Assembly: GCA_027493955.1 (NCBI GenBank)
Contig: JAOSJT010000001.1
Span: 2,653,131-2,717,130 of the forward strand
Length of the DNA stretch: 64,000 nucleotides
DNA from: Bacteroidia bacterium
GTDB lineage: Bacteria; Bacteroidota; Ignavibacteria; SZUA-365
Reading direction: 5' to 3'
The notes beneath the pieces were generated by a model, which ran no database searches, was not told the DNA's origin, and worked only from the letters and a program-made list of their open reading frames with translations. Below are positions 2,225 through 61,138 of this stretch, piece by piece (positions within the stretch are counted from its first letter, which is position 1; every line of letters begins with the position of its first letter). Both the position numbers and the translations under genes were made by a program.

Positions 2225-2540
2225 GTTTTCGCGGATGGGCGGCGAGGTGAAAAGTGAAGGATGAAAGGAAAAGCGCAACATAATCGTGAATCGGGAATCG
2301 TTCATCGGTCCGCCCAAGCGGAGGGAATCGGGAATCGTTAACCAGAGCTGTCGTCAGCCTCAGGCTGAGCTTGGAAGGTCCTGGTTAGGCGCGTGCGTAC
2401 CCCAACTGCCTTTGAAGGGTACAGGAGGCGTCGCCCTTCGGGCTCAACGCGTCGTTTAACGTTTCACGTTTAACTCTTCCCTTCACTTTTCACGTTTCAT
2501 ATTTCAATCTTCACTTCCTCATTCCCCGCCGGGTACGACC
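2225..2540. repeat. Gene-free convergent gap filled with word repeats and REP-like hairpins
   Basis: No gene seen. The arms GTGAAAAGTGAAG (2247-2259) and CTTCACTTTTCAC (2481-2493) are perfect inverted repeats 221 bp apart. Between them lie two copies of GAATCGGGAATCGTT (around 2289 and 2327), the hairpin GTCAGCCTCAGGCTGAGCT (2353-2371, found again at 33332-33350), the palindromic CGCCCTTCGGGCT (2432-2444, a module of the 32-33 kb array) and TTTAACGTTTCACGTTTAAC (around 2454). The gap separates convergent genes. Confidence 0.75.
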
Positions 2541-31679: not shown

Positions 31680-31960
31680 TTAACAGTCCACGGCATCCGC
31701 GTATTTCATGAGTGTTGCGACGGAGGGCGTCTGCTCACGCACGGACTCGATTCGTGAAACCGCGCTTTTCGTCGTGCCGATTGCGTCGGCCACGTCTTGC
31801 TGCGTCATCCCTGCGCGAAGCCTGGCACGCAGTATCTCCTTGACGATGGCGTATTCCACTGTCAGGTGCTCATACGCTTCCGGAAAGCCTTGCGCGCCAT
31901 CGCTTTCGAGAGCATATCCTCGTGCTCATGCGGTGTCGGACTGTAGATAAGATCAGGCAT
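31680..31960 (-). pseudogene. HigA-like helix-turn-helix antitoxin, frameshifted
   Basis: The frame from ATG 31960 reads MPDLIYSPTPHEHEDMLSKA and then AFRK before ending early at RMST. One frame over, the text resumes as AYEHLTVEYAIVKEILRARL and runs through an HTH (MTQQDVADAIGTTKSAVSRIES) to a stop at 31680. Adding one G in CGGAAG|CG near 31882 restores AFRKAYEHLTVEY, the normal continuity of this XRE antitoxin family. It overlaps the toxin's original end, so the pair was an operon. Either real decay or a sequencing indel. Confidence 0.8.
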
Positions 31961-32003
31961 TGTTCACTTCCTTTATTCTTGATCGGGCGAGCTCAAGGTC
32001 GCG

Positions 32004-32279
32004 TTACATTGTTTTCTCACTTTTCTTCATAACTGCATGCACAAGCACGATGCGCTGTCCGGAGATGTAGCAGTAGAATGCGCGTCCATCTCCCTCGGCT
32101 CCGCGTGGTCGCAGCTCGAATAGGCCGTCGCCCAAGGCGCGGGTATGCTGCATTCGTAGTTCGCGACCAAATTCCGCGAGCAATTCGATCATTCGCAAAT
32201 AGTCCGCCAAGATACCGACCGGCCAGCTTTCGATCACCTTCTTGACACGTGCATGATAGTATTCGATGCGATATGGCAT
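32004..32279 (-). CDS. HigB/RelE-type toxin, truncated by premature stop
   Basis: 91 residues, phage-derived Gp49-like (HigB-1) family: MPYRIEYYHARVKKVIESWP, LRMQHTRALGDGLFELRPRG and GRAFYCYISGQRIVLVHAVMKKSEKT. A TAA at 32004-32006 ends it early; the same frame continues as RDLELARSRIKEVNNA to a TGA at 31953 that overlaps the antitoxin ATG, as in intact HigBA operons. About 16 C-terminal residues are lost. Family role: mRNA cleavage on the ribosome. With the antitoxin broken too, the module is probably inactive. Confidence 0.85.
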   Translation of the reverse strand: MPYRIEYYHARVKKVIESWPVGILADYLRMIELLAEFGRELRMQHTRALGDGLFELRPRGAEGDGRAFYCYISGQRIVLVHAVMKKSEKTM

Positions 32280-32322
32280 GTCGGCATGTTAGCATTTTTG
32301 CGAACACCAGTCAGGCGACGAA

Positions 32323-33326
32323 GTGTCGCCCTGCGGGCTAAGAGGGCGGGTGGGTTGCGCGTGCCCCCCGACTGCCGTTGGGGGTTAGAAGACGTGCCGC
32401 CCTTCGGGCTGATGGCGGATGTGCTATGCGCGTGGCCCACCAGCTGAAGCTGGGGGTTAGAAGAAGTGCCGCCCTTCGGGCTGATGGCGGATGTGCTATG
32501 CGCGTGGCCCACCAGCTGAAGCTGGGGGTTAGAAGAAGTGCCGCCCTTCGGGCTGATGGCGGATGTGCTATGCGCGTGGCCCACCAGCTGAAGCTGGGGG
32601 TTAGAAGACGTGCCGCCCTTCGGGCTGATGGCGGATGTGCTGTGCTCGTGGCCCACCAGCTGAAGCTGGGGGTTAGAAGACGTGCCGCCCTTCGGGCTGA
32701 TGGCGAATGTGCTATGCTCGTGACCCACCAGCTTAAGCTGGGGGTTAGAAGACGTGCCGCCCTTCGGGCTGATGGCGGATGTGCTATGCGCGTGACCCAC
32801 CAGCTGAAGCTGGGGGTTAGAAGACGTGCCGCCCTTCGGACTAAGAGGGCGAGTGGGTTGCGAGCGGCCCCCAACTGACGTTGGGGGTTAGAAGACGTGC
32901 CGCCCTTCGGGCTGATGGCGAATGTGCTATGCTCGTGACCCACCAGCTGAAGCTGGGGGTTAGAAAACGTGCCGCCCTTCGGGCTGATGGCGGATGTGCT
33001 ATGCTCGTGGCCCACCAGCTGAAGCTGGGGGTTAGAAGACGTGCCGCCCTTCGGGCTGATGGCGAATGTGCTATGCTCGTGCCCCACCAGCTGAAGCTGG
33101 GGGTTAGAAGAAGTGCCGCCCTTCGGGCTGATGGCGGATGTGCTATGCGCGTGGCCCACCAGCTGAAGCTGGGGGTTAGAAGAAGTGCCGCCCTTCGGGC
33201 TAAGAGGATGTGCTATGCTCGTGGCCCACCAGCTGAAGCTGGGGGTTGGAAGAAGTGCCGCCCTTCGGGCTGATGGCGGATGTGCTATGCGCGTGACCCA
33301 CCAGCTGAAGCTGGGGGTTAGAGGGA
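32323..33326. repeat. 14-unit tandem array of 72-bp hairpin repeats
   Basis: Unit starts (GTGCCGCCC) fall at 32394, 32466, 32538, 32610, 32682, 32754, 32826, 32897, 32969, 33041, 33113, 33185 and 33255, with a diverged unit before from about 32323. Period is 72 bp except one 71 and one 70. Each unit holds two palindromes: GCCCTTCGGGC and CCAGCTGAAGCTGG. Units at 32323 and 32826 are a variant type with CCCAACTGACGTTGGGG in place of the second palindrome. Units are 90% or more identical and have no unique spacers. Open frames through the array on both strands are by-products of the period being 24 codons. Confidence 0.92.
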
Positions 33327-33331
33327 GTGAG

Positions 33332-33350
33332 GTCAGCCTCAGGCTGAGCT
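33332..33350. repeat. Dispersed hairpin GTCAGCCTCAGGCTGAGCT
   Basis: This 19-mer at the array's right edge is identical to 2353-2371. Its core CAGCC-TCA-GGCTG is a hairpin. It is followed by CTCTTCACTCTTTACTCTATACTC words up to the next gene. Confidence 0.7.
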
Positions 33351-61002: not shown

Positions 61003-61039
61003 AAAAAACCGTTGACCCTGCGGTTAGCAGAACAACGGT
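61003..61039 (-). terminator. TPP riboswitch expression-platform terminator
   Basis: On the minus strand ACCGTTG (61039-61033) pairs with CAACGGT (61014-61008), an inner CTGC/GCAG pair sits between, and TTTTTT follows (61008-61003). It lies between the aptamer and the receptor start, so ligand-bound RNA should stop here. Confidence 0.85.
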
Positions 61040-61045
61040 GTAGAG

Positions 61046-61133
61046 AGGCTTCCTTCCCTACGCCGGCATTATCCGGGTCAGGTTCGACGGGTGTATTCTC
61101 AGCTGCCGGTATCTCCGGCAGCACCCCGAGTGA
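61046..61133 (-). ncRNA. TPP (THI-box) riboswitch
   Basis: The minus strand reads GGGGTGC, the stem GCCGGAGATACCGGC, then CTGAGA, later GAACCTGA and CCGGATAATGCCGGCGTAGG: the conserved THI-box order with the pyrimidine- and pyrophosphate-binding elements. Its start at 61133 lies at the position predicted for transcription from the promoter at 61139-61169. It controls the TonB receptor and thiN. Confidence 0.96.
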
Positions 61134-61138
61134 ATGAA

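Follow-up and report, generated by a model that had tools for sequence, protein, structure and literature searches.

In the window (the whole stretch of 64,000 nucleotides analysed here, part of a complete genome of 5.24 Mb) lies a tandem array of hairpins, which raises the question of whether it is a repeat that grew where it stands or one cluster of a mobile family served by an enzyme. The array is probably a tandem cluster of a REP-like non-autonomous mobile unit, whose cognate enzyme would be a Y1 protein of subclass 1.2 encoded elsewhere in the same genome.

Organization and history of the window array

The initial annotation described a 72-bp tandem hairpin array of fourteen units, and both TRF (72 bp x 13.2 copies at 32379-33322, 92% match) and a covariance model (14 B-linker-A modules) agree with it, the true extent being 32320-33346 (Table 1). 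All units are direct and head to tail, each consisting of hairpin A (GCCC-TTC-GGGC; fourteen occurrences from 32328 to 33260, in steps of 70-72 bp), about 25 nt of spacer, hairpin B and a 14-nt linker, which is conserved. At the 3' end the final module closes with a variant hairpin A, CAGCC-TCA-GGCTG (33334-33346). The two long module patterns have an expectation of 0.00 in dinucleotide shuffles. The spacers are near-identical inside the array, unlike the unique spacers between the short repeats of a CRISPR. The two variant units already noticed are genuine, each with a distinct spacer and B stem, and the single modules seen near 2353-2444 are a full unit and an adjoining variant hairpin.

Table 1. 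Positions of the array, its parts and related elements; coordinates refer to the window except in the last row.
Feature	Position	Strand	Remarks
Whole tandem array of REP-like units	32320..33346	+	14 B-linker-A modules; period 72 bp, 70-71 bp in variant units
First unit, spacer type A (AAGAGGGCGGGTGGGTTGCGCGTGC), hairpin B stem CCCCCGACTGCCGTTGGGGG	32328..32398	+	
Six type-B units, 72 bp each	32399..32830	+	
Hairpin B, example (CCACCAGCTGAAGCTGGGGG)	32437..32456	+	inner stem covaries among arrays
14-nt linker, example (TTAGAAGAAGTGCC)	32457..32470	+	conserved; genome consensus TTAGAGGAAGTGTC
Hairpin A, example (GCCCTTCGGGC)	32471..32481	+	
Second type-A unit	32831..32901	+	8 positions unlike first type-A unit
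Four type-B units	32902..33189	+	
Chimeric unit, type-A start (CTAAGAGG) fused to type-B end	33190..33259	+	
Last unit	33260..33346	+	variant hairpin A at its end
Single full unit, same repeat family	2394..2445	+	covariance model, E 6e-12
Variant hairpin A (CAGCCTCAGGCTG) adjoining the single unit	2355..2367	+	same variant also upstream of Y1 transposase gene
IS3-family copies	G000:C1:470845, 1303232, 4069139, 4382389, 4660494, 4983995		loci L024, L060, L070, L073, L074, L076

The folding energy of single units, which are GC-rich, was not better than that of shuffles (z about -1), and covariation was therefore used as the test of structure. Among 26 diverse units pairing was kept in 94% of the pair cells, and of the 30 double-changed cells 28 lay within hairpin B, at three inner pairs (CG/AU/GC; AU/GC/CG/UA; AU/GC). 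Covariation scored 0.283, while shuffles gave 0.116±0.015 and slid controls no more than 0.065; hairpin B thus covaries in its inner stem, and structure is conserved. Hairpin A also occurs in a variant form, GUCC...GGAC. On the 3' side conservation ends abruptly after GGGCT; 5' of hairpin B it fades out. These data also bear on a 345-aa open reading frame that runs through the array, which could be read as a gene for a repeat-containing protein because the 72-bp period is divisible by 3 and several frames stay open. Such a gene is very improbable, since changes in the stems compensate each other at the DNA level, frames are open on both strands, and the array periods differ within the genome (46, 71, 72, 73 and 74 bp), so coding is not the constraint.

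Along the window array the spacer types follow the order A BBBBBB A BBBBB. Growth by the copying of a block of units had been proposed from this arrangement, and a duplication of seven units was rejected: in-register similarity at lag 7 was no better than in shuffled arrays (P = 0.94), and between the two variant units there are 8 differing positions, a number that most pairs of type-B units do not reach. Neighbouring units, in turn, are more alike than shuffled ones (P = 0.018), which, together with the chimeric unit at 33190 and the lag-7 result, suggests from the sequences that unequal exchange between neighbours, not block copying, shaped the array. Six loci have spacer type A, which in several arrays occupies the first or second unit, and six have spacer type B, there paired with several different B stems; modules have therefore been reassorted between loci. 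As a local repeat the window array is ordinary.

A repeat family dispersed through the genome

Copies of the unit occur genome-wide, at about 30 loci that comprise arrays and single copies, as the comparison with dispersed repeats made in the initial annotation would lead one to expect. BLAST of the genome with two units as query gave 140 matches, the covariance model counted at least 152 units (a lower bound, only 150 candidates having been scored), and 234 matches, a figure that includes fragments and counts one locus twice, came from searching 1.03 Mb of fetched sequence locally. Forty 20-kb stretches picked regardless of the repeat yielded just a single copy, already known, and one small cluster that was new, and hence most copies sit in the examined loci. 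Like REP/BIME elements, the repeats are palindromes of 20-40 bp, dispersed in high copy number through intergenic DNA.

The presence of GC-rich hairpins in intergenic DNA, together with the location of many REPs downstream of genes (PMC3733652), would also fit a regulatory RNA or an array of transcription terminators acting on the toxin-antitoxin neighbour or on downstream genes. We regard this as a slim possibility, because the arrays of the host genome lie in codirectional (16), divergent (9) and convergent (7) gaps with no clear preference for convergent or downstream ones, and because an Rfam search found no match to the array. The only hit returned was a TPP riboswitch at window positions 61038-61138 on the minus strand (RF00059, 69 bits). 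The position of dnaA (3.568 Mb) and the GC skew place the replication terminus, as a suggestion, near 0.95 Mb. Counted by hand, the orientation of about 18 of 27 loci follows the leading strand, which is not significant.

The toxin-antitoxin pair beside the window array (31690-32279) had been called decayed, which applies to one of its partners: the HigB/Gp49-like toxin gene (PF05973) is intact, and the antitoxin partner that follows it, with an HTH-like region, is split over two reading frames. Additionally, the genome carries six near-identical copies of an IS3-family element (rve and HTH_21 domains), all six of them in or beside repeat arrays. It looks like an IS that targets REPs, which would be a further REP-like trait of these repeats, IS targeting of REPs being already known (PMC1525189).

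The Y1 transposase and its flanking units

REP/BIME elements depend in other bacteria on RAYT transposases, and the initial annotation, which likened the array to such elements, had noted that none is present in the window. This absence was confirmed, and the search of the whole genome found one Y1 (HUH) transposase gene (PF01797, E 9e-19) 1.5 Mb from the window array, at G000:C1:4215638-4216120, flanked by the same modules. The likeness to REP/BIME elements thus stands as regards the repeats and their presence around a Y1 gene, and fails as regards their orientation, which is direct, and the enzyme, which by its motif is not a classical RAYT. Inverted modules lie upstream of the gene and a direct array of the same family downstream, so that, like in a REPtron, a single-copy HUH/Y1 gene stands between inverted copies of the repeat of its genome. 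The upstream module copy is weak but significant (E 7e-6, covariance model); its B stem is imperfect and a strict A-linker-B-spacer-A triplet was not detected upstream of this gene. Beside the gene, at L058:9191-9735, some units are cut to 46 bp, with hairpin B straight after hairpin A and no spacer.

The protein, of 160 aa, has the invariant residues H53, H55 and Y113 of the HuH motif and catalytic tyrosine, and its catalytic HxH, Tyr and Gln are intact. Its signature is Y---Q--HH (YISNQKEHH), not the Y---NP motif of class 2 RAYTs; it scores 54.1 with the NCBIfam IS200 model, just below the cut-off of 55, and 21 bits with the REP_Tyr_transpos model, whose cut-off is 80. Motif, size and low copy number correspond to those of TnpA-Y1 subclass 1.2 (Y---Q--HH, about 148 aa), and judged by its motif the enzyme is a member of this subclass and not a classical class 2 RAYT. 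The HuH motif, a length near 150 aa, the low copy number and hosts among the Bacteroidetes also agree with the published description of the subclass, reported mostly from Cyanobacteria and Bacteroidetes (PMC6006769). Quentin et al. 2018 classified it as 'REP: no' (PMC6006769), whereas REP-like units flank the gene in the genome studied here.

We fetched 80 homologous loci from Bacteroidota, Acidobacteriota, Planctomycetota, Verrucomicrobiota, Desulfobacterota and others, a range of hosts wider than the published one. Strong hairpins were found within 250 bp upstream of 38 of 76 homologous genes (50%) and of 26 of 231 other genes of the same loci (11%; P 1e-11), and within 250 bp downstream of 37 of 78 (47%) versus 34 of 229 (15%; P 2e-8). 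A TAG foot on the 5' side was also enriched (25/96 vs 5/109). We then scored the arrangement A - short linker - B - long spacer - A, in which on either flank the linker end is the one distal to the gene. In 79 homologous loci this oriented triplet was present upstream 15 times versus once reversed and downstream 17 times versus 3, and on both sides of the gene at 11 loci; it was found 0 times in ten shuffles and 0 times at a distance of 2 kb. A second set of 22 relatives, from which L083 was left out against double counting (it holds the same gene as L161), gave 8 versus 2 upstream and 7 versus 0 downstream. The strict triplet occurs at only about a quarter of the homologous genes and any strong hairpin at about half. 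A subclass 1.1 control gave 0 triplets in 4 loci, a set too small for comparison.

Recurrence of the flanking units was analysed with a concatenated query of ten such units against their ten genomes. Among the matches listed, each genome matched its own part of the query, with the exception of two genomes of the same genus that share a unit. Desulfonema magnum gave 165 matches, the planctomycete Pan216 38, Flavobacterium cutihirudinis 23, G024 16 and the rest 1-7, so that recurrences were few (1-16) in most of the other genomes tested. Two 26-copy arrays of 51 bp are present in D. magnum, with shorter arrays by the gene, and a five-copy 95-bp A-B-A array lies by the gene in Pan216; tandem growth is therefore not peculiar to the genome of the window. 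The D. magnum unit, hairpin A followed by a TTTGTAG foot with no clear hairpin B, matches the architecture more loosely.

These data bear on two other readings of the array, both of which we consider unlikely. The likeness of neighbouring units and the one chimera show that local exchange does shape the array, as would be the case in a satellite grown by slippage, its intergenic hairpins amplified locally by recombination and its adjacency to a transposase gene due to chance; such a satellite would not be expected at about 30 separate loci, nor does it account for a Y1 gene flanked on both sides by inverted units, here and in many phyla with unrelated sequences, or for sampled genomes carrying their own version of the unit. 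The repeats could also have been carried passively by an IS200-like element with subterminal hairpins, solitary hairpins being the decayed ends of past IS copies, and in favour of this the nearest solved structures to the enzyme are the transposases of IS608 and ISDra2 and terminal hairpins are present in IS200 elements (PMC6006769). Against it, IS200/IS605 elements are multicopy with near-identical transposases, while one gene copy is accompanied here by far more repeats; direct arrays reach about 20 copies with conserved linkers, and homologous copies inside one genome are divergent, unlike recent IS copies.

In a draft relative of the same family (G010) there were 16 unit matches and no subclass 1.2 gene was found, the Y1 match being weak (E 5e-4); gaps in the assembly could explain this, as could a gene lost once the units had spread.

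Relation to known repeats and a proposed mechanism

The repeats of the window share with REP/BIME/REPIN elements and their class 2 TnpA-REP (RAYT) partners short intergenic palindromes, many copies and a genome-specific sequence. They differ in that the unit is a two-hairpin A-linker-B-spacer-A block, in that all 14 window units are direct whereas BIMEs alternate REP and inverted REP, and in the foot of the hairpin, CTAA here (the reverse strand of GGGG-TTAG) instead of the 5' GTAG/GTGG of REPs. Because the GTAG foot and the alternating orientation are missing, we file the repeat as REP-like and not as REP. CGTC-tagged REPs, which reportedly lack a dedicated transposase, are likewise palindromic and occur in Chlorobi, Bacteroidetes and others (PMC3733652), a likeness by description; they form mostly inverted (head-head) dimers with negligible tandem ones (PMC3733652), in contrast to the direct arrays found here. 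With IS200/IS605 elements (IS608, ISDra2; subclass 1.1) the system would share single-strand Y1 chemistry and hairpin recognition.

Action on single-stranded units is established for TnpA-REP and IS608 TnpA (PMC8266576, PMC6006769), and by analogy we infer that the subclass 1.2 enzyme acts in the same way. It would recognise the folded single-stranded unit through the foot and hairpin B, and would cut and rejoin close to the shared A hairpins. A unit landing beside an existing A hairpin would regenerate the same end, which would lead to head-to-tail accumulation, and the array could then grow and homogenise through unequal recombination of neighbours. Cutting, mobility and this insertion rule are put forward as predictions of the model.

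The A-linker-B-spacer-A unit looks like an unrecognised cognate repeat of subclass 1.2, and we found no report of their association in openly licensed papers. On balance we think that subclass 1.2 may be a second branch of REP-mobilising HUH enzymes, of class 1 and not class 2, with a two-hairpin repeat of its own that spans several phyla and can form direct tandem arrays. The subclass, whose role has been open, would thereby gain a candidate substrate, and the partnership of REP and enzyme, beyond class 2, would include class 1 HUH proteins and reach several phyla. Intergenic hairpin arrays that otherwise lack an explanation in Bacteroidota-like, planctomycete and acidobacterial genomes would find a natural one here, and the partnership is testable, as the cleavage assay used for E. 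coli TnpA-REP is applicable to these units.

Lastly, some features of the host genome's arrays fall outside the unit itself. Directly after 14 of the 32 last units stands TCTTC (at L059, L060, L067, L072, L073 and L075 among others), followed mostly by a pyrimidine heptad tract (TTCACCC), possibly a target preference or a terminal structure. Arrays of hairpin A only, with a period of 50-52 bp, TTCACCC heptad tracts between the hairpins and no hairpin B, occur at L060:13984-14715 and L064:2690-2944. Tandem repeats of unrelated sequence also lie near arrays, at L067:1784-2156 (six copies of 62 bp) and L070:5746-6812 (several copies of about 117 bp).
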